A DNA stretch of 64,000 nt. It comes from Candidatus Brocadia sinica JPN1. GTDB lineage: Bacteria > Planctomycetota > Brocadiia > Brocadiales > Brocadiaceae. Position 1 is the stretch's first letter. Each line of letters opens with the position of its first letter. The notes under the pieces are model-generated. The model ran no database searches and was not told the DNA's origin. It saw nothing but the letters and a program-made list of their open reading frames with translations. Location of the stretch: NCBI RefSeq assembly GCF_000949635.1, contig NZ_BAFN01000001.1, positions 992,001 to 1,056,000 on the forward strand, given 5' to 3'. The translations under genes and the position numbers were made by a program. Below are positions 17,978 to 36,104 of this stretch, one piece after another.

Positions 17978-20900
17978 TTAAGCCTTTTCCACTTTTATCA
18001 ACTCACCATTAAGATACTTCGTCATGAAGTCGTTTTCATTTCCGGTTGTATATCCGGTTTTTGCAGGATCCCATAATCCTTTACCGCCAATACCACCATC
18101 CTCTGCCTTGGTAATCTTAACCAAAGTCTCCTTGGGAACCGTATTGATTCCATGGTTATCGGCCTCAAAACCGAATACAAACTTCATACCAATCTTGGCT
18201 TTATGGAACAGGCTATCAAGTTGATGCATTGGCATTGACCAGTCTCTGGTAATGCTTTGCTGGGAACCATAACGGAAACTGGATTGGTACCCGGTTCCGG
18301 CTGACAATGCCCTACCGTCCGGCCTTGTTTCATGAGCCTTTACAGACCTTTCCGTTGCAATCCATGAAGAGTGTTTAATCATCGTTACCCCGTAAGGATA
18401 GGATGAATTATACTTCGCTCTTAGCATAAGCCTTGAAACCTTATAGAAAGGATCACTTGGCTTCCACCCTTCATAAGGTCTATCTGCTGGGTTAGCATCG
18501 ACGTAAACATAATCGCCGTCGTTAATGCCCAAATCTTTCGCCGCCTGCGGGTTTATATTAATTTGATGTTCACCAACACCGGGCATTCTTTTATCCATTC
18601 TGTATGGATCACCGAAGTTGTTATTCCAGATAAAGTTCCAGTCAGTCACGGCCCATTGAGAATGTACCGTATGTCTTGATTTTGGCGTTACACAAAAGAA
18701 CTTATACCCTTTCTCCCACAGAAAATTCTTTGTTTGTTTTGTCTCAGCCCATGATTTCTTAATATTCCTTACCGTTCTCTCGTCCCAGTGCTCTGCGCTC
18801 TCTGGAATTCCATAATCATCAGGACGGATATACGGATTGGTGCTTACAATTACGTTTGGTAAGTACTGCGTTGCCTCAGGACCTTCACGATGCACAATAA
18901 AATTTTCACCATACTCAATGATCTCTGATTCATCATTGTATGCTTGCAGTCTTCCTGTTGGTGTATAGAAAGGAAGACTTTCGTGCACCTGTTCCCAGAA
19001 TGGCTGCCTTGGATAAGTCCTGTAATTTAACAAGGCCACACCAGGCTCACCATATTTACCAGCTACTATATCATCAAAAGTGTACCCCTTTGAGGTCGTA
19101 CTGCCATCCAACAACCTCTGGATATAGACTTCAGGTCTTCCCTCCAAAGCAAATTTCCAGAAGTCCCTAAATCTCATATCCCTGAGCAATTCTCCCAGTT
19201 TAGCCGCCATACCGGCAAGGATCATCACATCATCCTTGGAGTCGTTCACTGGCCTTATGCCACCCTTCCAAATCTGAAAGAACGGATTTGAGCATGAACT
19301 GGTAATCTCATGTGTCTCAAACTCCATCCAGCTATTTGCCGGGAATGCAAAATCTGCATACTCGATAGAACCTGTCATTTCTATATCATTAGACATAATC
19401 TGCTCGATATTGGGGTTGACATTCTTCAGCATCTGGTACACATGCTTTGCATTATTTACCAGGTTTACGTTGGTAAACCACATGATTTTTGTCGGTGTTG
19501 GCATGTGTGTCTTGCCTGTGAAACATTTACGTCCGTACTTAGGCGTATTCACAATCAAAGGCCTGTCATTATGATTCCAGTATGCAACTTCTTCATCGTA
19601 GGCACGACCTTTTATCTTTAAATCCATTGCAGGCGCATCTGGATCCAAGTTTGGATTGAATACATCCTCAGCCACCCATCCATAAAATCCAGGACCACAC
19701 CATTTTGCTGACTGGAAATTACCAGCCTTGTAATTTCCTGCCCAAGTATGTGAACCTGAACCCATATAGCCGACATTACCCGTCAACATTAAAGGTAAGT
19801 ATGTCGACCTATTCATTAGTGTTGCATGGAAATAGTGATTAATACCTTCCCCATAATGAATTGCAACGGGTTTTATGGTCGCAATGTCGTGCGCTAACCG
19901 TATAATTAACTCTTTTGGAGAATTGGTCATTTCAACTACGCTGTCAATGTCGTAATCTTTTAGGTGTATTTTATACATCTCAAAGAGAGGCATGACCTCG
20001 ACCTCTTTACCATCAACAGTTTTTACCTTGAATGTACCATCGAGTACAGGGTCAATCCCTTTCGCCACCAGTTTATCACCAACATCATCTCTGGTAATCG
20101 GTTTTGGACCATTCGTCTTTGCATCCCAAACGACAAAGTCCCCTATGATTTCTCTCTGGTCATCGTGTAAACCATGAAGTTTATAACTAGCTCCATGCGA
20201 AATATCTTCTAATTTGTAATCAGGAAATATATCCTTGGCCTGCAATCTTTTCAAGGTATCTGTCCTAACGAGCAAGGGGAAATCGGTAAACTTCTTCACA
20301 TAATCTGCATCATACAGCTTCTCGTCCATCAATATTTTAGTCAAACCCAAGAAAAGTGCTGTGTCGGTATTACACTTTATCGGTATCCAGTAATCGGCCT
20401 TTTGAGCAGATGGACTATATTCAGGTGTAATAACAACGAGTTTTCCACCTCTCTCCATAACCTGGGTAAGCCAGTGCGCCTCAGGCATCTTATTTTCAAT
20501 CAGATTTTTCCCCGTTTGGATAACCAGTTTCGAAAACCGAATATCATTCATATCGACATCAGAGGTCTGCAGACCATGAGAGAAAGGATGACCAGGGGCC
20601 TGATCACCGTGCCATGTGTAGTTCGACCAGTTCCTTCCACCAAGCGCCTTATCTGGCCCTACCCCTCTATTATGGCTATCAACCAAGGAAAGCATATTGT
20701 TAAATCTGTACATGCCATACTTCCCTATGACGCCAAGGAGGCCCATACCGCCACGACCCTTAAAGGTTCGTGTGCCTGCACCCTTCATGGCATCCACCAT
20801 CTCTTTCGGATATCCCTGCTCTATCAATTTTTTTGCACCTTCTTCACCGCTGTATTTCTTAGTAATGTGGAGAATCCCCTTTGCAGCATATGTCCACGCA

Positions 20901-21427
20901 TCGTCCCATGAAGCCTTCAATAGTTCATCCTGGCCTCTGGCATCAAACATATACTTTGATTTATTTTCCGGTGTCAATTCCGGGAACCCATCATCTGCCC
21001 ATTGCTTCCAACCTTTTCTGATAAGCGGATATCTTAACCTATACGGACCATAAACCCTGCGGTGGAATGTATAGCCTTTTAAGCACATCCTGGGATTCCA
21101 GTTCCTCGTCGCCTTATTTCCGTACAGGTCCGAGTAATTCTGATGGTCATAATTCTGTTCCACCCTCATAACCACTTCGTTTCTTACAAACGCCCTTACC
21201 CTACAAGCATGGGTGTCATTCGGCGAGCAAGTAAAGGTAAATGTCCGATCATACCTATACTGGTCGCGATATACACTTTCCCATGCACGATCAGGATAGG
21301 CATCCAATGGATTTCCTACCTCAACAGCAGGTTTTAAGAGCCTGAACGCCATTGCTTTATTGGCAAGGGTAAAGGTCGCTCCCGTTGCACCCGCCACTTG
21401 TAGGAAAGTCCTTCTTGTAAGCTTCAT
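17978..21427 (-). CDS. nxrA: Nitrite oxidoreductase alpha subunit (molybdopterin catalytic subunit)
   Basis: 1149 residues, DMSO-reductase family type II. The N-terminal Tat signal TRRTFLQVAGATGATFT directs folded export with its cofactor. The proximal iron-sulfur motif is Cys67-x3-Asp71-x3-Cys75 with Cys115 downstream (CSPNDTHAC, RMCLKG), rather than the His/Cys-x3-Cys-x3-Cys of NarG. Further markers are WHGDQAPGHPFSHGLQTSD, LVIQTGKNLIE and WIPIKCNTDTALFLGL. It oxidises nitrite to nitrate with water as oxygen source at Mo-bis-MGD and can run in reverse (family knowledge). A GGAG lies upstream of the ATG. It is the last gene before the inter-cistronic hairpin. The gene order nxrC-nxrB-torD-x-nxrA supports the call strongly. 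Confidence 0.95.
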   Translation of the reverse strand: MKLTRRTFLQVAGATGATFTLANKAMAFRLLKPAVEVGNPLDAYPDRAWESVYRDQYRYDRTFTFTCSPNDTHACRVRAFVRNEVVMRVEQNYDHQNYSDLYGNKATRNWNPRMCLKGYTFHRRVYGPYRLRYPLIRKGWKQWADDGFPELTPENKSKYMFDARGQDELLKASWDDAWTYAAKGILHITKKYSGEEGAKKLIEQGYPKEMVDAMKGAGTRTFKGRGGMGLLGVIGKYGMYRFNNMLSLVDSHNRGVGPDKALGGRNWSNYTWHGDQAPGHPFSHGLQTSDVDMNDIRFSKLVIQTGKNLIENKMPEAHWLTQVMERGGKLVVITPEYSPSAQKADYWIPIKCNTDTALFLGLTKILMDEKLYDADYVKKFTDFPLLVRTDTLKRLQAKDIFPDYKLEDISHGASYKLHGLHDDQREIIGDFVVWDAKTNGPKPITRDDVGDKLVAKGIDPVLDGTFKVKTVDGKEVEVMPLFEMYKIHLKDYDIDSVVEMTNSPKELIIRLAHDIATIKPVAIHYGEGINHYFHATLMNRSTYLPLMLTGNVGYMGSGSHTWAGNYKAGNFQSAKWCGPGFYGWVAEDVFNPNLDPDAPAMDLKIKGRAYDEEVAYWNHNDRPLIVNTPKYGRKCFTGKTHMPTPTKIMWFTNVNLVNNAKHVYQMLKNVNPNIEQIMSNDIEMTGSIEYADFAFPANSWMEFETHEITSSCSNPFFQIWKGGIRPVNDSKDDVMILAGMAAKLGELLRDMRFRDFWKFALEGRPEVYIQRLLDGSTTSKGYTFDDIVAGKYGEPGVALLNYRTYPRQPFWEQVHESLPFYTPTGRLQAYNDESEIIEYGENFIVHREGPEATQYLPNVIVSTNPYIRPDDYGIPESAEHWDERTVRNIKKSWAETKQTKNFLWEKGYKFFCVTPKSRHTVHSQWAVTDWNFIWNNNFGDPYRMDKRMPGVGEHQININPQAAKDLGINDGDYVYVDANPADRPYEGWKPSDPFYKVSRLMLRAKYNSSYPYGVTMIKHSSWIATERSVKAHETRPDGRALSAGTGYQSSFRYGSQQSITRDWSMPMHQLDSLFHKAKIGMKFVFGFEADNHGINTVPKETLVKITKAEDGGIGGKGLWDPAKTGYTTGNENDFMTKYLNGELIKVEKA

Positions 21428-22449: not shown

Positions 22450-23241
22450 TCATTCCTCACTGAAATCTTCAGAAGATGCGCAGGACAAACATTCATCTGA
22501 AGCTCCGGCCACCGCCTCTTGATTGAGATCAGATTCCTTATACATTTCTGTTTTAACATCCATGAGTTTCATTTCCAATCGCAAAAACTCTTTTGTCAAA
22601 GCAGATACGGCACAATAAAAGCCTTCTCCAGCTTTCCTGCCAAAGAGAACTGAAAAAAGGGGTACCCATTTCCCCAGATGCTCTTTCAAGAATTTCTTCT
22701 GCGCATCCACGCATATCTGCGATTTTTCATCTCCATGGTTTTCCAGGGCGTAGGCTTGCTTGTATAACAAAAAATGCATAAACTCAAACTCTACACTAAT
22801 GTGGTCGCATCGTTCCTTTTCTATGTCGGAAACATCAAGCCCAAAAGCTTTATAAAAGCCTTGAATATCACCTAACTCATGCACTTGCTGATACACATGC
22901 GCCGCGCCATATTGAGTCTCATACAAAGGACATTCTTTCGACATGGTATGCCCGACAACGCACTGATATACTCCCTGCAAGCTTTCAATGTTTGTAATTC
23001 TAGACAACTCCCGAACCTCATTCAAACATCTTCTCAACTCTGCACCATCGTCTACACCTTCGTAACAGGGTATCAACTCTTTCTCGTGTTCCTGAAAATC
23101 AGGACTTCTCAATATTGACAAATTTTTCTCTGCCGGATAAAGAAAACAGGCAGACAAAATCTGGTACATTGCACTTCGCGCAAGCAAGTCATCCACTCTG
23201 GATGCAACTCGTTGATCTAAAAGACTACTGTCTACTTCCAT
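22450..23241 (-). CDS. TorD/NarJ-type molybdoenzyme chaperone
   Basis: About 263 residues from MEVDSSLLDQRV, preceded by GAGG at six bases; a TTG-initiated extension of four codons is open. The all-helical TorD pattern is seen: SAMYQILSACFLYPAE, CPLYETQYGAAHVYQQ, LGDIQGFYKAFGLDV, ISVEFEFMHFLLYKQAYA. Proteins of this family bind the Tat peptide of the catalytic subunit and hold it for molybdenum cofactor insertion before export. Its place between nxrB and nxrA points to NxrA as client. The last 30 residues are acidic and cysteine-containing (ECLSCASSEDF). Confidence 0.85.
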   Translation of the reverse strand: MEVDSSLLDQRVASRVDDLLARSAMYQILSACFLYPAEKNLSILRSPDFQEHEKELIPCYEGVDDGAELRRCLNEVRELSRITNIESLQGVYQCVVGHTMSKECPLYETQYGAAHVYQQVHELGDIQGFYKAFGLDVSDIEKERCDHISVEFEFMHFLLYKQAYALENHGDEKSQICVDAQKKFLKEHLGKWVPLFSVLFGRKAGEGFYCAVSALTKEFLRLEMKLMDVKTEMYKESDLNQEAVAGASDECLSCASSEDFSEE

Positions 23242-23255
23242 AATAAACCTCAATT

Positions 23256-24467
23256 CTAAATTGAATTGTAATGTTTTGGGTCTCTGATATGAACAGGCTC
23301 TTCTATCGTTGTTCTTACAATTTCTTGCCCATCTTCACCATACCCAATAACGGTGTCATTGTACAACTCAAACTTCTTACCGTGAATCATCGTCTCAAAT
23401 ACCTTTGGCCCTTCCTCAATCTTGTACTCAAATATAATGGATTGAGTCATCCTGAACAACGACATCACCGCCAATCTTTCTCTGGAAGGTACCATAAATT
23501 TATCAATCGCCTCATCAACACCTGGACCAAACATCTGTCTCAGGTAAGACCTTGGTGCCCACCTCGGTGGTATATAGTATATGTTAGGCTCTGTTCCAAA
23601 CTGGGGGTAAAGAGGCAATGCTAATTTGTCATGCCTAATTAACCACGTGACCGGATTCTTCGGATTATCATCCAGAAATCCCTGCAAACGAATCTGTCCT
23701 ACACACGCAGCCATACACCTCGTTTCCATCGGACGCCCCTTCGTTAATGGATCTTTCCCCTCAATTCTGGGGTAACAGGCGATGCACTTTTCACTTACCC
23801 TCGTTAAACCCCGGTACATGGGTTTTTTGTACGGGCATTGCTCTACACACTTCCTGTATCCCCTACACCTCTTCTGGTCGATAAGAACTATTCCGTCTTC
23901 TTTTCTCTTATAAATAGCCTTTCTTGGACAGGCAGCCAGACAACCCGGATACGTACAATGGTTACAAAGTCTTTGGATATAAAAGAACCAACGACTATGT
24001 TCCGGCAACGATGAATATTCGTCAGGTTTATTACTTTTTGCTACGTCTTCACCAAAATTTGGCGCCCGCCATTCCTTATCCTCTGGAATGTACCCTACCG
24101 CCCACTGATTAATATTCTTCTTCGCGGCCGCTTCAAATATCGTGTCACCCTCGTATACCCCATAAGGAGATAATTTCTCGTCCTTTTCATCGGTATACCA
24201 GGTATTTTCACCATTATCAATCAACTTTAACGTTTTAACGTCCCAAGATTGCGGATACCCACCATACGGTTTTGTTTCCACATTGTTCCACCACATGTGC
24301 TCCTGTCCTTTGTTATAAGTCCATGCACTCTTACAGGCCATGGTACACGTCTGACAGGCGATACACCGATTGATGTTAAAAATAGCCGCAAATTGGCGCT
24401 TCGGTCTGGATTCAAAATAGGGATACTCCATACGTCTCCCTAAATGCCAGTTATGTACTAATGTCAT
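23256..24467 (-). CDS. nxrB: Nitrite oxidoreductase beta subunit (iron-sulfur)
   Basis: 403 residues, NarH-like. There are four cysteine clusters: CIACQTCTMAC near 35, CNHCTYPGCLAAC near 168, CRGYRKCVEQC near 198, and CIACYPRIEG paired with RCMAAC further on. These bind a chain of four clusters that takes electrons from NxrA to NxrC. It has no signal peptide and is expected to be exported together with NxrA. Start ATG has GGAGG eight bases upstream. C-terminal text FRMTQSIIFEYKI and HIRDPKHYNSI is typical of anammox/Nitrospira-type NxrB rather than NarH, as I judge it from memory. Confidence 0.95.
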   Translation of the reverse strand: MTLVHNWHLGRRMEYPYFESRPKRQFAAIFNINRCIACQTCTMACKSAWTYNKGQEHMWWNNVETKPYGGYPQSWDVKTLKLIDNGENTWYTDEKDEKLSPYGVYEGDTIFEAAAKKNINQWAVGYIPEDKEWRAPNFGEDVAKSNKPDEYSSLPEHSRWFFYIQRLCNHCTYPGCLAACPRKAIYKRKEDGIVLIDQKRCRGYRKCVEQCPYKKPMYRGLTRVSEKCIACYPRIEGKDPLTKGRPMETRCMAACVGQIRLQGFLDDNPKNPVTWLIRHDKLALPLYPQFGTEPNIYYIPPRWAPRSYLRQMFGPGVDEAIDKFMVPSRERLAVMSLFRMTQSIIFEYKIEEGPKVFETMIHGKKFELYNDTVIGYGEDGQEIVRTTIEEPVHIRDPKHYNSI

Positions 24468-24506: not shown

Positions 24507-25481
24507 TTATTGCCAAGCAACTCTTTCCAGCGTCGCGGGATGCCATTGAGTAGATATATTTTTTTGCCCGTTCCTATCTTTTTCATTACCATTCCATACC
24601 GCCATGTTGAAATACGTAGTTCCGCCGGGAACAAATTGTACATCATGAGGATCTTCCGTAATTAGCGAACGATAGATAATTACCGTCCACACCCCATCCT
24701 CATACTTGCTGCACCCGTTCACATCCTGGTGGGCTTGCGTAGTCAGGGTACCAAAACCCTCTGCATTTAAATCTTCTACCGTTCTCCCTCTTCCTGGCTG
24801 AGACAACAAGTTATTTGCAGCCCTTCCACCCGATAAAACCTCCACACTGGTTATCAGTTCCCGATGATAATATGCGCTGTAAGGATTTAAATTAAAATCA
24901 TCATGCATATTTGGATATTGCGCCTCTACGTCTTCCAACTCACCTTTAACGAGCAAATCTGCCTCCCAGTCTGCCTTCCAATGCCAGAGATTTGTTGGTT
25001 TTTCTCTATCCCCCATCCTCGGGCTAAAATGCTCCGCTGGTGTTATCTCAACTGCGCCTAACGGAAACATTAAAGCCACCGCATCCCTAAACTCCTGAAC
25101 TGCAATTGCCCTGGCATTCTTTGTAGGGTCACTCCATGATATCTTGAAATAGATTGCAAGACCATCATGAATACCCTTTACTTCCGCATTCTTCACCGAT
25201 CCACCACCATTGGGAAATGCCTTATCCTGCATTTGGAGCGGAACAGTAACTGCCTGCGCGTCTTTAAAAAAACCTTGCAATGATTCCACATCCATATGAT
25301 ACGGCTTACCCACTTCCACGTATTTTACCGCCAACACCTCTTTGGCTGGAGTAAATTCCTCTTCAGACACCCCTTTAACCCCCTGCGCCGTCTCTTCAGC
25401 AGCAAATAATGTAGCGCTAAGAAACGCACAACTCAAGAGGGCTATACCATACCTTTTAAACAACACATACACTTTCATCAT
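24507..25481 (-). CDS. nxrC: Nitrite oxidoreductase gamma subunit (haem b, ethylbenzene-dehydrogenase-gamma-like)
   Basis: About 324 residues from the ATG at 25481, preceded by AAGGAGGAGG; the frame is open 13 codons upstream. A Sec signal (LLSCAFLSATLFAAEE) is followed by one beta-sandwich haem-binding domain of the type-II molybdoenzyme gamma family: FPNGGGSVKNAEVKGI, YFKISWSDPTKNA, FRDAVALMFPLG, NLWHWKADWEADL. The domain passes electrons from NxrB to an outside acceptor. It is the first nxr gene after the promoter at 25.56 kb. Confidence 0.9.
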   Translation of the reverse strand: MMKVYVLFKRYGIALLSCAFLSATLFAAEETAQGVKGVSEEEFTPAKEVLAVKYVEVGKPYHMDVESLQGFFKDAQAVTVPLQMQDKAFPNGGGSVKNAEVKGIHDGLAIYFKISWSDPTKNARAIAVQEFRDAVALMFPLGAVEITPAEHFSPRMGDREKPTNLWHWKADWEADLLVKGELEDVEAQYPNMHDDFNLNPYSAYYHRELITSVEVLSGGRAANNLLSQPGRGRTVEDLNAEGFGTLTTQAHQDVNGCSKYEDGVWTVIIYRSLITEDPHDVQFVPGGTTYFNMAVWNGNEKDRNGQKNISTQWHPATLERVAWQ

Positions 25482-25543
25482 TCCCCCCTCCTCCTTATTT
25501 GTAATGATCATACCATACACAATAATAGATTCACGATAGCTAA

Positions 25544-25981: not shown

Positions 25982-27310
25982 TTAGTGAAACGAACCATCA
26001 TTCATAAACGCGGTCCTTGCTTCATTGACTATCTGTGTGGTTATTTCTCTACAGCCCTTCTCATATGCATACTCCTCAATTTTTTTTCTAACCATATCTC
26101 TAACAAAAGAAGGAATACGCTCTGTTTGCGTTTGCGCTTCCTGCGTCCAAGCGGGGATTTGCGCTCGTATGAGCGGTTTTTCAGAAGCCTTTTGGTCACC
26201 CTTGACAGTTCTCAAAAAACTATCTTCCATATGCGATTGATCGTGTGCGCTCCTAGCTACTTCTTTTTCTTTCCCGGACACCTTCGAAAATTCCTGACAA
26301 TCTACCAAAGCATCAAGCCTTGCCTCCTTGTTTCCCCCTGTAAGCAACACATTGCAAGATGCCAGCCTCAACAAATTTTCTGTTGTACTGCCAAGATCTA
26401 ACCCATTGGTGTTATGCACTCCCGTGCGCCCCAAGATTACCGTTGTGGGTTTTTCGTGCAGTATGTATTTTAATATTTTATCATACGGTTTGCCGTCCAT
26501 CAGAACAATATCTGTTTTCACCCCGGCGTCTGCTGCCATTCGATTTACCCGATCCAAATGTCCCTGATATATCTTTGCAAGGCCTTTATCAATAATCTCC
26601 TCATGAAGCGTTTCTTGTTCCTTAAACCTGAAAACCTGCCCTGCCTCCTTAGAAAGTACATTTGCGATGCTTTCAAAGGCAACACGATGATAATGTGGAT
26701 CAAATACAGATACCGCAGTAAGTTTTAAGTTAAACAATTTAGCGAAAGAAATAGCTGATTTGACTCCGGCAAAAGATTGCGCGCTTCCATCTACTGCTAT
26801 TACCATCTTTCCCTCTAAACGCATATTTTTTACCACGAGGACATCTGTCTTGATGCGCCTGACCACACGCTCACAAACACTCCCTATTACATTCTCATCC
26901 ACAGATGCCAACCCACGCGCCCCCAGAATCACAAGATCATATTGATTCCCCTGCACCTCTTTAATAATTTCATAATAGTTTTTACCTTCCAGCAGAAGGC
27001 ACTCGTGAGGTACAGATGCTTCCCCGCACTTATTTTTAAACACGTCCAAATAAGATTCTGAAATCAACTTAAGACCGAGATTGATCAATGAACTATGGAG
27101 GTCACGCTGCCTTTGGAGTACGCTTTCATCCTGATATTGTGGCGGCAACCCCTTTTCCATGTCTCGAAACCGTCTCTGATGCAATGCGGCATCATAGACA
27201 TGACATCCCACCAATAGTGAACCAAACTTTTGCGCAAGATCAATACCAAGATCAATGCAAAAATTAGAGTGCCACGAGTTATCAATTCCAATTAATATTT
27301 TTTTATACAT
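25982..27310 (-). CDS. Tandem universal-stress-protein domains fused to a PCP_red-like domain
   Basis: 442 residues. The first USP domain spans about 1-160 (KKILIGIDNSWHS, YDLVILGARGLASVDEN, IGSVCERVVRRIKTDVLVV). The second spans about 167-325 (MVIAVDGSAQSFAGVKSA, TTVILGRTGVHNT, STTENLLRLASCNVLLTGG). A charged linker follows, then residues 385-440 (IPAWTQEAQTQTERIPSFV, KIEEYAYEKG, REITTQIVNEAR). The tail matches the small domain found at the end of the light-independent protochlorophyllide reductase B subunit and in many nonphototrophs. The G-x2-G-x9-G ATP pattern is partly present. It lies just upstream of nxrC in the cytochrome run, so a regulatory or structural link with NXR is possible but unproven. 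Confidence 0.75.
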   Translation of the reverse strand: MYKKILIGIDNSWHSNFCIDLGIDLAQKFGSLLVGCHVYDAALHQRRFRDMEKGLPPQYQDESVLQRQRDLHSSLINLGLKLISESYLDVFKNKCGEASVPHECLLLEGKNYYEIIKEVQGNQYDLVILGARGLASVDENVIGSVCERVVRRIKTDVLVVKNMRLEGKMVIAVDGSAQSFAGVKSAISFAKLFNLKLTAVSVFDPHYHRVAFESIANVLSKEAGQVFRFKEQETLHEEIIDKGLAKIYQGHLDRVNRMAADAGVKTDIVLMDGKPYDKILKYILHEKPTTVILGRTGVHNTNGLDLGSTTENLLRLASCNVLLTGGNKEARLDALVDCQEFSKVSGKEKEVARSAHDQSHMEDSFLRTVKGDQKASEKPLIRAQIPAWTQEAQTQTERIPSFVRDMVRKKIEEYAYEKGCREITTQIVNEARTAFMNDGSFH

Positions 27311-27331: not shown

Positions 27332-27901
27332 CTAACACCGAGACGATTCATTCCTGAGTTTCTTCCACTCAGTAATAGCTCCTCCAGCCAACGCCAGAGT
27401 AATCACACCGATAAATAACCATCTTACCGACGATTTGAAGACACCGTCTTTTTTTTCTTCAACGATAGCCTCTTTTGCAGCAACTACAGGCTTTTCTGTT
27501 TCCTGTGCAGAAAAGCTTCGTATGTAGACAACCAGTTCCTTGATTCTTTTCTCAGTAAGCGTCTTTCCCCAGGGAGGGCAAAGATTAGATTTTTCTACTG
27601 CCTTAGAACCTTCGGTAATAGACTTGATGAGCTGATCATCTGTCCTCTTTTTCATGTATTCTACATCGGTAAAATTTCGAGGCTTCGGTTTTAAATCAAT
27701 GGTGAAGAACGTACCGTCTCCCTTCCCTTTTATCCCATGACACGGTGAACAATAATATTCAAAGGTCTTCTTAGGTGACAGCAAAAAAACTTGATCCCGA
27801 GGAGAAACGTCTAACGCCTGTGCCGCTGAATAGACACCAAAGACACCCAGCACAACAAATGTGCATATCAGTAATTTTTTCCCAGATAAAAAATATCCCA
27901 T
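27332..27901 (-). CDS. Membrane-anchored monohaem c-type cytochrome
   Basis: 189 residues. An N-terminal signal or anchor (LLICTFVVLGVFGVYSA) precedes one haem site, CSPCH at 51-55, with GIKGKGDG and PKPRNFTD after it. A C-terminal membrane helix is at about 158-176. The class I cytochrome c fold with low molecular weight suggests an electron shuttle held at the membrane. Its ATG overlaps the stop of the tetrahaem gene by one base (TAATG), so translation is coupled. The same PKPRNFT motif occurs in the dihaem protein at 29407-31002. Confidence 0.8.
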   Translation of the reverse strand: MGYFLSGKKLLICTFVVLGVFGVYSAAQALDVSPRDQVFLLSPKKTFEYYCSPCHGIKGKGDGTFFTIDLKPKPRNFTDVEYMKKRTDDQLIKSITEGSKAVEKSNLCPPWGKTLTEKRIKELVVYIRSFSAQETEKPVVAAKEAIVEEKKDGVFKSSVRWLFIGVITLALAGGAITEWKKLRNESSRC

Positions 27902-29382
27902 TATTTACCCTCTTTCTTCACATGGTCTACCAAGAAACCTACCAGTTGCTTCAACTCATCTTCCGACAAACCAAAGTTTGGCTCAACACCCTGCGGGTTA
28001 ACTTGCTGCGGATTTTTCAAATGATAGAGAATATATGCTGGTTGCAACCTTTCCCCCACAGTTGCAAGGTTAGGACCAACGACACCACCACCTTTTGCAA
28101 TACTTTCAGAATGACAGGTATTACAACCCTTTTCATAAAACACCTTTTCCCCGGCAGCAACTACTTCAGCAGAGGGCATCCCATCCTTATAGATATCCGG
28201 AAGAGCTTCTTTGGTAATAAGATTTTTTTCAATATATTCAGTGGCTGCCTTTGCTTCCTCCCCAGTCAAATTAAACTTTGGCATCTGCTGACTAAGGGGA
28301 CGGATAATATCAGGCGTCTGTAAAAACTCGTGCTCCCACTTCATTTTTATTTTACTACCTGCGATTGTCAGATTGGGCGCGTAGGTACCGCCTTTGTCCT
28401 GTATCCGATGACAAGTCAAACAGCGTATCTCGTATAAAAGCCTTTCAAATCCAGATGTTCCCTCACGTTTTTTCTCCACTACCGGCATTAAATCAGGAAT
28501 TCCTTTTATATCGTGGCAAACAAAGCATCTTGCTTTTTCAACGATATCCCTTCCTTTTTCAATAAGGGCGCTATCCTTTCTTATACTGCCAAATTCTTTT
28601 TCTGTTAACACCTTAACTTCTGGTTTTGCGGGTTTAGCCTCCCCCTCTTCCTCTTCTTTCTCTTCGGGTATGAACTGCGTATCCCGTAAAATAAACTCTA
28701 CAATTCCCCTCACATCCGCGTCATTAAACCGGTACTGAGCCATCATCGTATCAGGAAAATGACTCTTCGTGTTGCTCAGCCAGTCATATAACCAATTCCT
28801 GTTTACTTTTGTTGTAATCTCGCCGAGATCTGGCCCAACTCCCACATTGCCGCCGACCCCTTTTATCGGATGGCAAATTGTACAGCGGGCACGCCCCCAT
28901 ACGCCTTTCCCGTTATTATAAACCTTATCCATCTTATCATACTCATCCTCAGAAAGCTCCTCCTCTTTCTTTAATAAGAAGGCGTCCCATGAAACCTGTG
29001 GCACTTCTTTTTCGGCAATACTGCCAAGATAGGCAATAATAGCCTTGATCTCCTCAAATTCCAAGCCGAGATTAGGCATCTTCGCGTTTGGTACTACCGC
29101 TCTTGGATTAGCGACCCATCGGGAAAGCCATTCTACCTTTGCCTTATGGATAATATTAACCAAAGGAGGCCCATTTTTGATTCTCTTATATGGATCTTCG
29201 AGCTCAAATGGGAGTACAGTCCATTGTTCTGGAATCCGATACTTTTTATCCAATTCCAAATAAAGGGCATCTATTTTTCTCTCCTGTCCGGAAGAAATCT
29301 TTCCAATCACCAGTAGAGATAAGCCCACCATAGCCATTACAAATGTTACTTTCTGCAAGCTAACCATAAACCTTAACCTCAT
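27901..29382 (-). CDS. Tetrahaem c-type cytochrome
   Basis: 493 residues. A signal segment (FVMAMVGLSLLVIGKI) is followed by four CxxCH sites: CTICH at 167-171, CFVCH at 286-290, CLTCH at 321-325 and CNTCH at 420-424. A haemless N-terminal unit (about 80-125, WVANPRAVVPNAKMPNLG) has the same helix pattern as the later haem domains, as if its CxxCH had been lost. An acidic linker sits at 238-252. It most likely carries electrons between NXR or hydrazine metabolism and the membrane complexes; the exact partner is not known. AAGGAG lies six bases before the ATG. Confidence 0.8.
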   Translation of the reverse strand: MRLRFMVSLQKVTFVMAMVGLSLLVIGKISSGQERKIDALYLELDKKYRIPEQWTVLPFELEDPYKRIKNGPPLVNIIHKAKVEWLSRWVANPRAVVPNAKMPNLGLEFEEIKAIIAYLGSIAEKEVPQVSWDAFLLKKEEELSEDEYDKMDKVYNNGKGVWGRARCTICHPIKGVGGNVGVGPDLGEITTKVNRNWLYDWLSNTKSHFPDTMMAQYRFNDADVRGIVEFILRDTQFIPEEKEEEEGEAKPAKPEVKVLTEKEFGSIRKDSALIEKGRDIVEKARCFVCHDIKGIPDLMPVVEKKREGTSGFERLLYEIRCLTCHRIQDKGGTYAPNLTIAGSKIKMKWEHEFLQTPDIIRPLSQQMPKFNLTGEEAKAATEYIEKNLITKEALPDIYKDGMPSAEVVAAGEKVFYEKGCNTCHSESIAKGGGVVGPNLATVGERLQPAYILYHLKNPQQVNPQGVEPNFGLSEDELKQLVGFLVDHVKKEGK

Positions 29383-29406: not shown

Positions 29407-31002
29407 TTATTGTTGTTCTTCTTCTAACTTAGGTGGAAATCTGCGCAGCCTGGCAATAAACCACAATTCAACACTCGCGCCCATAACGATAGCGATCAAC
29501 ACATACGCAAAAACTGTCTTAGGAACGGGTTTTTCCAGCATAATGTAATACCAAACCGATATCGATTTCTGACCAGCGACATCACTATTCGAACCATCCC
29601 ATACAGCAAAAGCTGCAGGGATAAGCTTACCGATTTCAAATTGCAGGTCTTTGGCATCTTCGGTTTTCAGAGTTCTTTTCAATAATACCTTCCATCTTCC
29701 ATTCTGGTACACACCTTTTCCCGTAACATTTTGACTTTCGGGCGGCTGCATTGTAACATTCTTAAATCCCTTAGCGTTCATTTCACACACCATACCCGCC
29801 TCAGTTTCTGGGGCTTCCGTTATCTGTCCAAAACCTTCCTGCCAATGTGCCTTCCAACTCCAAAGATTAACAGCCCCACTAGAGTCTCCCATTGCAAAAT
29901 ATGGTTTCTTTAGTGATTCTGGAATTTTTGTCGGAAACTGTATGGAAACGGCGTCTCTGAATATTTCTTCTTGTTTATTAGTAGAATCATCCCATTCCAA
30001 TAAAAATACAATTTCCTCCTCATTGTACATTGCCCTGATCATAATCGCATCTATGGAGGGAGTCCAGTGTCGTGGACTTGCAATAATTTGACCTGCCAGC
30101 GGAATTTCCACCGGAGCAGCCTTGCTCCAGCTCTCATCAAGAGGCTCAGACGGTAGCCGACCATCTTCAAGCAACTTTACCTTTACTACGACGTCAGACG
30201 CCATGTCCTTTGCCAGACTTTTCACAAAATGAGCGACATGCCACCGATCTTCGTCTGAAAGCTTTTCTAAGTATGATCCCATAGGGGTCTCATTGAAACC
30301 CGTTGAAATAGTACGATAAATATCCTCTATCGCATTGCCACCCTTAAAGTTCCACCCCTTTGTCAAATCCCTGGCCCGATAAGGCATATTCCACTCAGTT
30401 TGCAAAGCAACAGTCAAAGGCCCATTTCCCCTGCCGTCATCCCCGTGGCACTCGAAACATTTCGTTTCCTGAAATAATTCCTCACCCCTCTGCACACTTT
30501 CCGGTGATGAGGCTACATTTCCCACAGGAACCACTTTAGGCGCAGCATCTTTTTTAAACTGTTCGTTAAAGGTCTTAAGATAATAAAGCACCTGCCACCG
30601 TTCTGTCTCGCTGATTGTGCTCCAGAAAGGCATGGCCGTCCCTTCTATGCCGCTGGTGATTATTCGAAACAAATCTTCATCCGTAGGAACTGATCCAAAC
30701 GCAGTAGAACGAACCTTATATTCATTCCTGGTAAAATTCCTTGGCTTGGGGAACATCGTGATAGAGGCGGGACCATCACCCTTTCCCTCAATTCCATGAC
30801 AGTACCAACACCTTTTTTCGTAAACTTTTTTTCCTTCCGCAACAGCTTCTGTCGTTTCTGGCAGCTTCTGAGGTACTTCATGTTTATACGTTCTAAACAA
30901 ATGAGATGCTTGCGCGGATACATCCTCACATACCCAAGAAACACCGCCAAACACAACGATTAATCCACAACCAATCAGTCCTTTTTTTAACGCTTTTATC
31001 AT
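29407..31002 (-). CDS. Dihaem cytochrome c fused to an NxrC-like haem b domain, membrane anchored
   Basis: 531 residues. A signal segment is followed by two cytochrome c domains with CWYCH at 65-69 and CFECH at 182-186. From about 270 to 490 comes a domain like NxrC and ethylbenzene dehydrogenase gamma (VEIPLAGQIIASPRHW, VFLLEWDDSTNKQEEIFRD, VSIQFPTKIP, NLWSWKAHWQEG, WKVLLKRTL, FAVWDGSNSDVAGQKSIS). A single membrane helix lies near 497-517, with a basic then acidic tail. Compare FRDAVALMFPLG and NLWHWKADWEADL in NxrC. It could accept electrons from NXR or act as an alternative gamma. A haem-containing extra subunit (NXR-T) is reported for Kuenenia NXR; whether this is its homologue is not decided here. 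Confidence 0.75.
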   Translation of the reverse strand: MIKALKKGLIGCGLIVVFGGVSWVCEDVSAQASHLFRTYKHEVPQKLPETTEAVAEGKKVYEKRCWYCHGIEGKGDGPASITMFPKPRNFTRNEYKVRSTAFGSVPTDEDLFRIITSGIEGTAMPFWSTISETERWQVLYYLKTFNEQFKKDAAPKVVPVGNVASSPESVQRGEELFQETKCFECHGDDGRGNGPLTVALQTEWNMPYRARDLTKGWNFKGGNAIEDIYRTISTGFNETPMGSYLEKLSDEDRWHVAHFVKSLAKDMASDVVVKVKLLEDGRLPSEPLDESWSKAAPVEIPLAGQIIASPRHWTPSIDAIMIRAMYNEEEIVFLLEWDDSTNKQEEIFRDAVSIQFPTKIPESLKKPYFAMGDSSGAVNLWSWKAHWQEGFGQITEAPETEAGMVCEMNAKGFKNVTMQPPESQNVTGKGVYQNGRWKVLLKRTLKTEDAKDLQFEIGKLIPAAFAVWDGSNSDVAGQKSISVWYYIMLEKPVPKTVFAYVLIAIVMGASVELWFIARLRRFPPKLEEEQQ

Positions 31003-31087: not shown

Positions 31088-31858
31088 CTACTCAAGCTTT
31101 TCTCTTTGCCTAGGCATAACGCCGGCCGTGTCATACTCACCCATGATAATCTTCCAGATTTCGTCATCCTTTAAATCGTCTTTCCACGAAGGCATCGCTG
31201 AATCCCATGGTGTAGACTCTGAAGGCAGACCAGGCCCTCCGTCTTTAATTCTCCAAAAGAGATAATTATCTACCACCGTTGCAATTGTCCCCGGATCCTG
31301 AAAGTTAATCGGTCGCAGGCGGAACGAATTCGCAAACGGGCCGTTACCATCTGCCTTCGAACCATGACAGGGACGACAGTAGGTTTGGAAAAGTATCTTT
31401 CCCTCCTCTATGCTTTTCCGCTGGACATCTGCATCTGCCTGTCTGAAAGGATTTTCAAGTTTTTCAAAGTCTTGCGGTAATGTTGGATGCTGAATCCTCA
31501 GCTCGACAGGTGAAGCAGCGCCAGGAATCGACCATGTATACACGAACCACCCTACAAGGACAGGAAAACCAACGAATAGCGTCTTTTGTAGAAAAAACTT
31601 TATCATCGGCCCCTGATCCGGAAGCAGAAAACTTAAAAAATCTGCAAACTTCTTGTTGCTGGTAGTCGCATAAACCAGACCAGCCAATATCCCCATAATC
31701 ATATACCACATCATTAAGGTACTCGGCGTGGGCATGGGGTGACCTTTTCCCATTAACATCTGAAAGATCTTTGGCGAAGCATATTTAAGAAACAGAAATA
31801 AACAGACAACGGCTGTTAGTATCCAGATAAACAAAAATGTCTTGCGTTTATTAGCCAT
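31088..31858 (-). CDS. Membrane-bound monohaem c-type cytochrome
   Basis: 256 residues. Three hydrophobic segments (about 9-27, 48-64 and 92-110) precede an exported cytochrome c domain with CRPCH at 161-165 and LRPINFQDP, a lipophilic class I pattern. A methionine ligand is likely in AMPSWKDDL. GGAG lies eight bases before the ATG. It is in the middle of the cytochrome run and probably belongs with the bd-like protein as a membrane electron-entry subunit; this is inferred from order. Confidence 0.75.
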   Translation of the reverse strand: MANKRKTFLFIWILTAVVCLFLFLKYASPKIFQMLMGKGHPMPTPSTLMMWYMIMGILAGLVYATTSNKKFADFLSFLLPDQGPMIKFFLQKTLFVGFPVLVGWFVYTWSIPGAASPVELRIQHPTLPQDFEKLENPFRQADADVQRKSIEEGKILFQTYCRPCHGSKADGNGPFANSFRLRPINFQDPGTIATVVDNYLFWRIKDGGPGLPSESTPWDSAMPSWKDDLKDDEIWKIIMGEYDTAGVMPRQREKLE

Positions 31859-31903: not shown

Positions 31904-32854
31904 CTATTTCAAACTTTGCAAAAAGGAGACAATCCCGTAAAAGTCCTTTACACTCAGAAGTTCACCAATATTTCCAGGCATAATGGATACCTCCTGCTTT
32001 TTCATTTCAGCTACATCTGATTTTGGAATAACGACCTCTTCGACCTCACCGCTTTCTTCCAAGAACAACACCAGCTCTTCATCGGTCTCACTTTTGATCA
32101 ATCCGTTGTAAGGTATGCCATCAGAAGTTATTACATACATCGTTTCGTAACCTTTCACTATTTTTGCGCTGGGTTTAAGGATAGACTCCACAAAATATTC
32201 AGGCGTCTGGATTGCGCCAATCCCGGTAAGCTCAGGCCCAACCTTTTTCCCTCTCCCATTCACAATGTGACATTTTCCGCAGGTAACCGGACGTGTTTCA
32301 TCAAAAAACACCTTTTCCCCCTCCTTCGCATCAACCACCACAGGAGGCACCCACGGCTTCACTTTCTTCTTAGATGCCTCGGGTATCTTATCCTTATATT
32401 TCATTAGGGCGCCAATATCAGATTCCCCACCCAACGTCTGGAGATAGGCCAAAACAGCCAGTATCTTTTCACGCGACAGCATAATAGGAGGGTCATATAC
32501 CCTAGGCATAATTTTATCATAACCTTTCACAATATATTTTTCCGGCTCTACGATGGATTCTACAAGATAATCGAGCCCGTTTGGCATACCCAACTCTTTT
32601 GCTCGTTCCTCCGCCCGACTTGCCAACCCTTCCTGGTCAGGACCCCTCGTAGCACTCCCGCTTGTCCCTATCTTATGACAGGTACCACACTGTCCATCCC
32701 CCCAGAATACCTTTTCACCAGCCTCCGGGCTGACTCCTCCGGCAGACTCGCCCCCACCCGTGCCAGAAAGCCCCGCCACATATATTGTGATATAGATATA
32801 AAATCCTATAACTGCAATTCCAAAAGCTGTAATTTTTAGCATGCTCTTATTCAT
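31904..32854 (-). CDS. Dihaem c-type cytochrome with N-terminal anchor
   Basis: 316 residues. One membrane segment (about 8-28) and a glycine-rich linker are followed by two related cytochrome c domains: CGTCH at 56-60 and CGKCH at 192-196. Each is followed by a matching motif (PEKYIVKGYDKIMP and SAKIVKGYETMY) whose methionine is the probable sixth haem ligand. The internal repeat points to a duplicated domain. It is transcribed with the bd-like gene upstream and the monohaem gene downstream. Confidence 0.8.
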   Translation of the reverse strand: MNKSMLKITAFGIAVIGFYIYITIYVAGLSGTGGGESAGGVSPEAGEKVFWGDGQCGTCHKIGTSGSATRGPDQEGLASRAEERAKELGMPNGLDYLVESIVEPEKYIVKGYDKIMPRVYDPPIMLSREKILAVLAYLQTLGGESDIGALMKYKDKIPEASKKKVKPWVPPVVVDAKEGEKVFFDETRPVTCGKCHIVNGRGKKVGPELTGIGAIQTPEYFVESILKPSAKIVKGYETMYVITSDGIPYNGLIKSETDEELVLFLEESGEVEEVVIPKSDVAEMKKQEVSIMPGNIGELLSVKDFYGIVSFLQSLK

Positions 32855-33032: not shown

Positions 33033-35198
33033 CTACGTATAATGCTCCGGATGAGGCTCTGTTAACTCAAACTCTTCTTTCAAAACACCTTTCTCCTTTT
33101 TTTCTCCCAGGTTAGCCAACCAAAATACGAATGCAACCAAACCCAGGAAGAGCGCTACGATCAAACCAACAACCCTTCCCATAAACGATAATGTTGGCGT
33201 GTATGCCCACTGCGAGGTATCCTGCAACACACCATAGATGTGCCAATCCATTCTCAGACCAGAACGTATAAAGCCCATAAGCCCCATCAGTATAACAATA
33301 ACCACACACAGGAGAATCAACGCATACTGGGATCTCACCGGCATCTTTCCCCACACGATACCACCCACAATTTTAGCTTTACGAAACATAAAGATATCTA
33401 TAACAGCATTCATGATCAGACAACTCATCACAACCGAAACCTGAGTTACAGACAAGTACCTCAGCACCAGGTTGGCCTTCTGCATGACTTCAAAACCATA
33501 ATACCAGAAATAGAGCACAGCAATACATGCCGTGACCGCAAACAACAGAGACTGCGCCAGCTTCCCTTTATTTTTAAACGTCAGGAATACCGCCAGACAG
33601 ACAACGAATGACTGGATATAAAGCGCGCGTATGAGCGGTTTCACGAAAACCTTTATATTCGCTTCCAATTCCACAAAATTGAGCGAAATCGCATAAGAAA
33701 CCAGCATCAATAAACAAAATATCAGGGCAGAAAATATCCCTATCTTGCCGACACGCCCCTGTTCAGAAAATGGCACCATCTCCCCCTTATTGCTCCGCCT
33801 GTAAATCAAAAAGGAGAAAAAGGTCGCTAAAATGATCAGATTCACCACGGCATTTTTCGCCGCCATAACTCCGAAATATTTAGAGAAAGGATGGTACTGC
33901 TCACCAATCATAGCCCTTTCTTCTCCACTTAGCGGCAGATTATGAGGGGTAAGCCACACTGCGAAACACATAAAGATAACAAAAATAAGATATTTAATGA
34001 ACTTTGTGTAGCGTTCAGACCCTTTAATCCTTCCCATTCCAAGCCACAGGTAGTAATTAGCACCAATAAAGAGCATGCCAATCAGGATTGCCTGAATAAT
34101 AAATGTCCAAGAGAATGCCCCCCCCATCATGATATTACCCATCACAGGACTGGCGCTATATACTTCTCGTCCCAGCCAATAACCAGCAAAGGGAAGAGGA
34201 ATCAATGCCCCTACTCCTATAAAGTTTCCGACATAACCCATCCAATCATAATGTGCCTTTTCTTCTTCTGTCTTTGCACCCAGAAATTTGACCGCAGCGT
34301 AGGCTCCCACCACAAAACCGCCAAAACACACATTAGCAATCAACCGATGAATGTTTACAGGCATCCAAAGCGGATTATATATGGCATGATACAAGCTAAG
34401 AACCTTTCCCGTCGCCGGCACAATCCCTGCCGGGCTCATCATGTACGTAGCCCAAGAGTTGGTCAAAAACATAAGCCCTGTACCAAAGAGATTGAGGAGA
34501 ACACCCAGAGTGATGTGGAACCACTTCTTCGCCGCTGTCCCTTTTAGGAGTTCCCACGAATAATAGTACCCATACAAGGTAAATGCCTCACCGAAGAACA
34601 TCAGCGCATAAACATACATGGTCGGCGCAAAGACGTTCGTCATGTGGCCCATAAATTCGGGATACAAACCGAACAAGCAAAACCCAAGCAAACCACCCAA
34701 TGACGCAGTCGTGGCAAAGGCCGCAGAAAGTAACTTGGTAAACTCCTTTGCCATTTTATCATATTTGATGTCACCACCTTTAAAACCCACAATCTCCACA
34801 ATCACCGCAAAGATGGGAACACCAAGCACAAAGGCAGCAAACATAAGGTGCAACTCAGACACGACCCAGACAATCGTTCGGGGGTCCATACCAAAAAATG
34901 TCCGGTATTGAACCGGGGCCATTTCCTCTTCTTCTATCGCCGCAGTAACGGTTCCTGCACCCTCCACAGGTTGCCCCTCAGGCAATTGAGATGATGCCGA
35001 TGGCTGACTCGCCTCAAATTGAGGCAATTCTACGCCAGTTGCCGGAACCTCACCTTCTTTTGTCGCTTGCGCTGGCACATCAGCCGCAACCACCCTTTGA
35101 GAAGAAGAAAAAAACGAAACAAGAGAGAGAAAAATTAATAAAAAAACAACAAAAGCACTTCTTTTTGCAAATCCCAACAATATCTTCAAATTATTCAT
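33033..35198 (-). CDS. Cytochrome bd-like membrane oxidase subunit I, extended
   Basis: 721 residues with about 14-16 membrane segments. A signal-like N-terminus and a Pro/Ala/Glu-rich stretch (about 40-95) precede a CydA-like core: SELHLMFAAFVLGVPIF and VNIHRLIANVCFGGFVVGAY hold histidines where bd oxidases bind haem. A second half of extra helices (about 420-700) has no CydA counterpart. The quinol-loop signature GRQPW of true CydA is not seen. Such bd-like proteins occur beside nxr in Nitrospira and anammox bacteria (recalled, not searched). In an anaerobe it may pass nitrite-derived electrons into the membrane pool rather than reduce oxygen. The ribosome-binding site is weak. Confidence 0.7.
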   Translation of the reverse strand: MNNLKILLGFAKRSAFVVFLLIFLSLVSFFSSSQRVVAADVPAQATKEGEVPATGVELPQFEASQPSASSQLPEGQPVEGAGTVTAAIEEEEMAPVQYRTFFGMDPRTIVWVVSELHLMFAAFVLGVPIFAVIVEIVGFKGGDIKYDKMAKEFTKLLSAAFATTASLGGLLGFCLFGLYPEFMGHMTNVFAPTMYVYALMFFGEAFTLYGYYYSWELLKGTAAKKWFHITLGVLLNLFGTGLMFLTNSWATYMMSPAGIVPATGKVLSLYHAIYNPLWMPVNIHRLIANVCFGGFVVGAYAAVKFLGAKTEEEKAHYDWMGYVGNFIGVGALIPLPFAGYWLGREVYSASPVMGNIMMGGAFSWTFIIQAILIGMLFIGANYYLWLGMGRIKGSERYTKFIKYLIFVIFMCFAVWLTPHNLPLSGEERAMIGEQYHPFSKYFGVMAAKNAVVNLIILATFFSFLIYRRSNKGEMVPFSEQGRVGKIGIFSALIFCLLMLVSYAISLNFVELEANIKVFVKPLIRALYIQSFVVCLAVFLTFKNKGKLAQSLLFAVTACIAVLYFWYYGFEVMQKANLVLRYLSVTQVSVVMSCLIMNAVIDIFMFRKAKIVGGIVWGKMPVRSQYALILLCVVIVILMGLMGFIRSGLRMDWHIYGVLQDTSQWAYTPTLSFMGRVVGLIVALFLGLVAFVFWLANLGEKKEKGVLKEEFELTEPHPEHYT

Positions 35199-35256: not shown

Positions 35257-36006
35257 TTATTTTTTTGCATAGACAAAGTCTACCGTAGTTTCTTCTTTAG
35301 GCTTTACAGCCACATCGCTTGTCTTTTTTCCAAGCTTTTCCTGCCAGGCTTCAATCTTATACGAACCTGACGGCACATTCTCTATCTTAAAACGCCCATT
35401 CTCATCCGTAACAGCGAAATAGGGGTTGGCCTTCACTACTATAAATGAACTCATCCATTTGTGAACATCGCACGTTATCTTAACTACTTCAGCGATATCA
35501 AATTTCTTCGTCAGTTTTCCACCGCCGGATACCCCCTCATTAAAGCCTGGATTTTTTATTGACCAGGAATGGAGATTGTGCATCACATTGTCACTATTCA
35601 GCAGATCAACGCTGGCACCGGCAGATACAGCAAGCACGTGGGGAGTAAACAGACATTCTTTCTGATCCAACACAGCAGCGGCTGTTGCCTCCGCCTTCTT
35701 ACCCGCAGCAATATCGACTAAGGAAACTACAACGTTTTTGATACCCCTGGACTCTCCATTTATCACCAATTCCTCTGATTGTTTATTTTCATGACCACAG
35801 GTCTGCTCATCTTTATCAACCTTTAATACTTTCACAGCTGGAACATCACCATCATATTTAACTATCCCAGTAATCGTTCCACCATCCTTCACATCGATCT
35901 CTTTGTAAGCCTCTGCCTTTGCCGTATGACCTACCCATACCACATTGGCCATTACGCCAAATACCAAACCACCAACAATAGATACGTATCGCAAATTTTT
36001 CACCAT
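35257..36006 (-). CDS. Secreted cupredoxin with carboxypeptidase-regulatory-like domain, second copy
   Basis: About 249 residues from the ATG at 36006, chosen because GGGAGG lies five bases upstream; the frame is open 26 codons more. A signal peptide is followed by a GGTITGIVKYDGDVP strand and a blue-copper site (NVMHNLHSW and ITCDVHKWMSS, giving His, Cys-x2-His-x2-Met). The end is a regulatory-like sandwich (AVTDENGRFKIENVPSGSY). It begins the cytochrome operon, downstream of a near-perfect promoter. It is a likely mobile electron carrier for the module. Identity to the copy at 17150-17878 is moderate by eye. Confidence 0.8.
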   Translation of the reverse strand: MVKNLRYVSIVGGLVFGVMANVVWVGHTAKAEAYKEIDVKDGGTITGIVKYDGDVPAVKVLKVDKDEQTCGHENKQSEELVINGESRGIKNVVVSLVDIAAGKKAEATAAAVLDQKECLFTPHVLAVSAGASVDLLNSDNVMHNLHSWSIKNPGFNEGVSGGGKLTKKFDIAEVVKITCDVHKWMSSFIVVKANPYFAVTDENGRFKIENVPSGSYKIEAWQEKLGKKTSDVAVKPKEETTVDFVYAKK

Positions 36007-36075
36007 CATTACCTCCCTATTCATCTTTTTTAAAACACGAGAACTTTGCTTAGTATAACCAACACAAAGACGCGC

Positions 36076-36104
36076 ATAATACATTTACGAAGAGAATTTG
36101 TCAA
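36076..36104 (-). promoter_or_regulatory. Strong sigma70-like promoter for the cytochrome/nxr module
   Basis: On the minus strand TTGACA (36104-36099), exactly 17 bp, then TATTAT (36081-36076). The start would be near 36069, about 60 bases before the cupredoxin ATG at 36006. This supports the short start of that gene. Confidence 0.7.

Follow-up and report, generated by a model that had tools for sequence, protein, structure and literature searches.

How do electrons from nitrite leave NXR, the nitrite-oxidising enzyme of anammox bacteria? Beyond the haem b of its gamma subunit, NXR-C, they go no further through the enzyme and need a partner (2021, PMC8387239). In the window, the 64,000-nucleotide stretch of the Candidatus Brocadia sinica JPN1 genome analysed here, a gene at 29407..31002 (-) encodes a 531-residue protein with a signal peptide, 2 c-type haem domains, an NxrC-like gamma domain, and a transmembrane helix. 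This protein, which we assign below to the alternative NxrCs, bears on the question as a candidate partner of the NXR-C haem b.

The matches of the protein to known domains, sequences, and folds are above chance level. Two stretches each matched the Pfam families Cytochrom_C (2.1e-23) and Cytochrome_CBB3 (4.4e-22), and residues 291-480 matched EB_dh (PF09459; 6.1e-31, 108.7 bits against a cut-off of 33.3), so that the protein passes the gathering score of the type II DMSO-reductase gamma family. With the NCBIfam model TIGR03477 (DMSO_red_II_gam) it scored 125.4 bits, under the cut-off of 169.85; because the NxrC of the same window (123.3 bits) likewise falls short, this cut-off does not discriminate and the model is too narrow for the anammox gamma subunits. 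Among solved structures, the N-terminal half matched Kustc0457 (6h5l_B; 2.5e-53), and the C-terminal half matched NXR-C (7b04_C; 5.8e-23) and the ethylbenzene dehydrogenase gamma subunit EbdC (5.9e-8). The alignment with 7b04_C pairs up the FRD, NLWSWKAHW, and AVWDG motifs already named in the sequence-only reading (at residues 348, 379, and 466); MGD and GQK lie at residues 371 and 477-479. An AlphaFold2 model built from a 66-row alignment (pLDDT 82.2, pTM 0.78) superposes through residues 44-265 on 6h5l_B (Z 27.1, 1.9 Å over 215 residues) and through residues 270-495 on both 7b04_C (Z 24.6, 2.7 Å over 215) and EbdC 2ivf_C (Z 24.6, 2.2 Å over 198). Sequence match to the PDB, superposition, and Pfam together place the gamma domain at residues 270-491 (29530..30195 (-)).

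The predicted signal peptide (approximately residues 1-31; 30910..31002 (-)) ends in AQA at its putative cleavage site and includes the first of 2 hydrophobic segments (residues 8-26). The second (residues 493-511) belongs to the C-terminal transmembrane helix (residues 495-521; 29440..29520 (-)), which ends in RLRR (positive inside). Pfam, motifs, and predicted fold agree on the architecture that had been proposed from the sequence, namely 2 CxxCH domains, a gamma-type domain, and one membrane helix, and the comparison of the gamma region with its family bore this out for both EB_dh and 7b04_C. The architecture is kept throughout the Brocadiaceae at 72-89% identity.

Haem c site 1 (CWYCH, residues 65-69; 30796..30810 (-)) and haem c site 2 (CFECH, residues 182-186; 30445..30459 (-)) are accompanied by the invariant methionines M124 and M241, respectively, as candidate distal ligands. 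In the gamma domain, M371 (codon 29890..29892 (-)) and K479 (codon 29566..29568 (-)) align with Met155 and Lys305, the haem-b ligands of NXR-C (Chicano et al., PMC8387239). The alignment therefore places the Met/Lys ligand pair of the NXR gamma subunits in the window protein, which likely carries a haem b.

The genes around it lie on the same (-) strand. On one side are those of NxrA (17978..21427), a TorD-like NXR chaperone (22450..23253), NxrB (23256..24467), and NxrC proper, the NXR gamma subunit (24507..25520), which has no haem c and no transmembrane helix, and then those of a UspA-like protein (25982..27310), a monohaem cytochrome with a C-terminal transmembrane helix (27332..27901), and a tetrahaem cytochrome (27901..29382), which are orthologues of Kustd1706, Kustd1707, and Kustd1708, respectively; the last begins 24 bp downstream of the gene studied here. 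On the other side are 2 members of what we refer to as the cassette, a monohaem cytochrome with N-terminal membrane segments (31088..31858; Kustd1710 orthologue) and a dihaem cytochrome (31904..32854; Kustd1711 orthologue, solved homologue 7zs0), followed by a cytochrome bd subunit I-like (CydA-like) membrane protein (33033..35198; Kustd1712 orthologue). This CydA-like protein is the sole PF01654 protein of the genome and retains the haem-ligand histidines of bd subunit I. The first gene on the cassette side (35257..36084) is the Kustd1713 orthologue, cupredoxin-like by literature (PMC3578206). A scan of the region for sigma-70 promoters gave 22 matches against 23.2 in shuffled sequences, that is, no excess; the best of them (36076-36104 (-), 11/12) lies just ahead of the Kustd1713 orthologue. 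Elsewhere in the genome, a published primer for the hydrazine synthase beta gene hzsB has 3 identical sites (G000:C1:677348, 872942, and 2798882), which suggests 3 hzs copies.

The Kuenenia nxr cluster, kustd1699-1713, has a published gene list (PMC6423088), through which we assigned locus L061 to Kuenenia by gene order. Both read nxrA, 1702, chaperone, nxrB, nxrC (followed in Kuenenia by 1705, the gene of NXR-T), uspA 1706, monohaem 1707, tetrahaem 1708, dihaem 1709, monohaem 1710, dihaem 1711, cydA-like 1712, and 1713. The matching order identifies the window gene as the Kustd1709 orthologue. The L061 copy is 72% identical to the window protein and has the same domains and the same ligands, so that the 2 proteins differ by sequence divergence only. 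Kustd1709 is annotated as a "hypothetical (diheme) protein", being catalogued in the literature and without characterisation in the papers found.

Similar proteins have been described in nitrite oxidisers. Luecker et al. (2013, PMC3578206) described an "alternative NxrC" of Nitrospina in which transmembrane helices accompany a haem-b-type domain and 2 sites for haem c. In Nitrospira moscoviensis, alt_NxrC_2 (NITMOv2_3640) has a signal peptide, one transmembrane helix, and 2 haems in 66.8 kDa (Mundinger et al. 2019, PMC6606698); its gene adjoins bd-like_3 and membrane cytochromes, its expression is 2.5- to 4-fold under that of the NXR subunits, and a role as membrane anchor was proposed (PMC6606698). 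As judged by their published descriptions only, alt_NxrC of Nitrospina gracilis and alt_NxrC_2 share with the window protein the signal peptide, the 2 haem c sites, the gamma domain, and the membrane helix, and also the clustering with a bd-like protein and c-type cytochromes, whereas in Nitrospira nxrAB lie at separate loci. The window protein has the described features of the dihaem type of alt_NxrC, namely a signal peptide, 2 CxxCH motifs, an EB_dh-type domain, and a C-terminal transmembrane helix, and a bd-like protein and membrane and soluble c-type cytochromes are encoded beside its gene. Matched by description, it belongs to this already described kind, and we refer to it as alt-NxrC.

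A scan of the genome collection with alignment A3 returned 334 relatives, and 80 loci were kept, which include SAR324, Myxococcota and other Deltaproteobacteria, Alpha-, Beta-, and Gammaproteobacteria, Acidobacteriota, a Dehalococcoidia MAG, and Nitrospinota. For the 78 members with enough upstream contig, the cassette was scored as present if a CydA-like gene lay within 7 kb together with one for a cytochrome of the 1711 or 1710 type. It was present in 72 of them (20/20 in Brocadiaceae, 13/16 in other Brocadiales, and 39/42 in other phyla), often in tandem pairs, whereas nxrB or nxrC lay within 7 kb only in Brocadiaceae, where the alt-NxrC gene belongs to the same cluster as nxrABC. An NxrA-like protein (E <1e-30) was called in 3 of the 34 cassette-bearing genomes outside Brocadiales, in one of them (G078) weakly, leaving 31/34 without NxrA. 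What accompanies the family is therefore the CydA-like protein, not NXR. In Scalindua and Anammoxibacter, moreover, the cassette is placed away from nxrABC, so that a link to NXR is not required. Of 24 Nitrospinota genomes, 21 gave a match, most of these being full length and next to 1710- and 1711-type genes, and relatives with the architecture of the window protein occur in most of the genomes. A hydrophobic segment is present at the C terminus of every full-length cassette relative that was checked. In the CydA-like partner, H117 and H284, the equivalents of His21 and His186 of cytochrome bd (5doq_A), are kept in 76/79 and 79/79 proteins, respectively; its assignment to the OR-N type, with the Q-loop absent, comes from literature on related proteins (PMC3578206).

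Several loci have further features. Upstream of many proteobacterial and SAR324 cassettes lie genes for a HEAT-repeat protein and for an AioA-like molybdoenzyme that scores above the TIGR02693 cut-off; in these groups and in others, such AioA-like genes lie directly upstream at L108:1205-3871, L111:4431-7196, L117:234-2906, L119:74-2773, and L139:511-3273. In genome G061 (family f5), the cassette adjoins a pair composed of a Kustc0458-like octahaem reductase (3.2e-240) and a Kustc0457-like dihaem protein (L052:1842-4410). An octahaem protein of approximately 950 residues is encoded beside Scalindua cassettes (L047:9337-12210, L057:583-3444, and L046:5263-8151); no HAO similarity was recognised in it, and a cytochrome c555 construct was its sole PDB match, with weak similarity. 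In the Scalindua orthologues of the window protein, the WHWRA motif of the gamma domain is followed by an acidic insert of approximately 50-60 residues (L047:2589-4349 and L057:8479-10185). The Acidobacteria MAG of L112 (G080, contig C137) has 2 NxrA copies 69% identical to the window NxrA, which represent horizontal transfer or mis-binning.

The haem-b ligands vary across the family. In the wide alignment, Met/Lys is found in every anammox NXR-operon gamma, whereas L110_cas1, a long-branch gamma of a Deltaproteobacteria MAG, has Lys/Lys. Met/Lys is also found in the Brocadiaceae and Scalindua orthologues of the window protein, and is not kept in most relatives outside these 2 groups; in the remaining cassette members the pair is Met/His, Met/Met, Arg/Met, His/His, or Ala/Tyr, among others. 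Because the pair varies among cassette members, haem b is not a fixed property of the alt-NxrC family. Met/Lys was also considered as a marker of NXR-containing organisms and dropped: the Nitrospinota cassette members are mostly His/His, and Anammoxibacter, which has NXR, carries Met/His in its cassette protein.

Trees of the gamma domain and of the dihaem half were built without an outgroup and contain some long branches, so that joins of long branches are to be read with caution. In the gamma-domain tree, all NXR-operon gammas, free and fused, lie on one side of a branch and the window protein on the other (support 95/94 in the thinned set and 93/83 in the full set). A clade of Brocadiaceae alt-NxrC and free NxrC was rejected (AU p 0.0017), and a recent duplication of nxrC as the origin of the window gamma domain was rejected with it. 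In the dihaem tree, a branch with support of 96/82 likewise sets off the NXR fusions; the window protein joins its Scalindua orthologues (97/90), separate from the Kustc0457-like proteins.

These NXR fusions are dihaem-gamma proteins of 520-539 residues without a transmembrane helix, encoded directly upstream of nxrA-nxrB-chaperone in 2 Anammoxibacter genomes (G001 and G002) and 5 genomes of family f3. The loci of the 2 families with such a fusion are L146:9847-11451, L147:9405-11024, L053:8791-10353, L054:9198-10760, L154, L155, and L159. An EB_dh census of these genomes found no free nxrC for that operon; families f1, f4, and f5 have a free nxrC. Genome G005 of f3 has a second, divergent nxrA-nxrB-gamma operon with a free gamma (L152:4308-9961; 43-48% identity). 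A CydA-like protein was found in 0/8 f3 genomes sampled. Family f3 is probably Bathyanammoxibiaceae, on a basis that includes its low NxrA identity (PMC9723696, PMC10467342).

Comparison with the known proteins places alt-NxrC between several systems. It shares with NXR-C (Kustd1704, 7b04_C) the gamma fold, the Met/Lys ligands, and the FRD, NLWxWKA, and AVWxG motifs, whereas NXR-C has no haem c domains and no transmembrane helix, has an insert of approximately 50 residues, and lies on the other branch of the gamma tree. EbdC has the same fold and motif positions, but is a soluble single-domain subunit of another enzyme of the type II DMSO-reductase family. The dihaem half is 41% identical to Kustc0457, which is, by contrast, a stand-alone partner of the HAO-like Kustc0458 without a gamma domain and on a separate branch of the dihaem tree.

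The role that we consider reasonably probable for alt-NxrC is that of a subunit in a membrane electron-transfer complex around the CydA-like protein, with electrons passing through it between this complex and the soluble NXR system. The protein would be exported to the anammoxosome-lumen (periplasm-equivalent) side and held there by its single C-terminal helix. Its cofactors would be 2 haems c, joined in this lineage by a probable Met/Lys-ligated haem b, and its partners in the complex would be the CydA-like protein (33033-35198) and the products of the neighbouring genes for small c-type cytochromes. Electrons from nitrite would reach the NXR-C haem b and then the partner, the 3 haems of alt-NxrC forming a relay between soluble NXR and the CydA-like membrane complex, with alt-NxrC docking to NXR or to its carriers. 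The direction of flow may be that of the published guess, reverse electron transport towards quinone. The potentials of Kustd1711, near +350 mV (PMC11791136), suit the relay step. In fractionation, 84-99.5% of the Kustd1705-1712 proteins was found in the membrane fraction (PMC11897245). An NXR-C-like domain, 2 haems c, and an anchor in one protein, with its gene in the nxr cluster, make alt-NxrC a concrete candidate for the NXR partner; it is probably a link from nitrite oxidation to the membrane and not a core subunit of NXR itself.

Three other roles have to be weighed against this one. Purified Kuenenia NXR consists of Kustd1700, 1703, and 1704, and its tubules contain Kustd1705 in addition; Kustd1709 was not reported in either (PMC8387239). 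The sequence-only reading had proposed a homologue or relative of NXR-T, the tubule-inducing protein, and the window protein indeed has haem c and is encoded within the nxr cluster, as Kustd1705 is in Kuenenia. However, Kustd1705, the gene product known as NXR-T, folds as a monohaem four-helix bundle (PMC8387239), whereas the window protein combines class I cytochrome c folds with a beta-sandwich gamma domain, and the 2 sequences have no similarity beyond a CxxCH. NXR-T also has its own gene in L061 (8107-8667), distinct from the counterpart of the window gene. Its homologues sit off the cluster in other genera (PMC8387239), that of the window genome lying approximately 1.16 Mb away (C1:2188424-2188918; 47% identity). 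We therefore reject the NXR-T identity, to which we give practically no chance. A different possibility is that the gamma domain takes the place of NxrC on NxrAB in a second, membrane-anchored form of NXR. Its fold and haem-b ligands match those of NXR-C, and the fusions directly upstream of nxrA in Anammoxibacter and f3, with no free nxrC detected, suggest that such a fusion can serve NXR. Yet these fusions lack the transmembrane helix, the gamma tree separates the window protein from the NXR gammas, the AU test rejects its union with the free NxrCs, and purified NXR is as described above. By label-free intensity, moreover, Kustd1709 (426,010) is approximately tenfold less abundant than NXR-C (4,152,800) (PMC6423088), and so is unable to serve each NXR one to one; a membrane acceptor fits this abundance better than a stoichiometric NXR subunit. 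We regard this true alternative gamma subunit as improbable.

The third possibility, which we consider unlikely but of more weight, keeps alt-NxrC as an integral subunit of the CydA-like complex and makes its partner not NXR but other high-potential proteins, the gamma domain being a docking or structural module. Candidates for such partners in anammox bacteria are small cytochromes and Kustc0458, the HAO-like nitrite reductase. The dihaem half most resembles, in sequence as well as in fold, Kustc0457, with which Kustc0458 is paired, and the G061 cassette is directly beside such a pair; most cassette genomes outside Brocadiales have no NxrA, several have an AioA-like molybdoenzyme upstream, and many relatives do not keep the haem-b ligands. 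Against it, the dihaem tree parts the window protein from the Kustc0457-like proteins, the neighbourhood with the Kustc0458 pair occurs in one genome only, and the Brocadiaceae gene lies within the nxr cluster and keeps the exact Met/Lys pair of the NXR gammas.

The relay between NXR and the CydA-like complex thus remains our preferred role for alt-NxrC. It gives form to another suggestion of the sequence-only reading, a replacement of NxrC in a second complex: given the constant CydA-like neighbour and the alt_NxrC literature, the protein is best read as an alternative NxrC belonging to such a complex. The further suggestion of that reading, that the protein could tie NXR to the membrane, is plausible. 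New here are the partnership with the CydA-like protein across phyla, the finding that the gamma domain is not a recent copy of NxrC, and the fused gamma in 2 anammox families. The census shifts the meaning of "alternative NxrC": in several phyla it consistently accompanies a cytochrome bd-like protein, usually without NXR. More tentatively, and with somewhat less confidence than we place in the relay, the dihaem-gamma fusion may be an old feature of NXR, and the anchored alt-NxrC of Brocadiaceae may have the same origin and have moved into the CydA-like complex. If so, anammox lineages would differ in how electrons exit NXR, some through fused haems c and others from an open haem b, which would hand its electrons to a separate tri-haem membrane relay. 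The fused dihaem gamma of 2 anammox families provides a natural comparison and makes the exit route testable.
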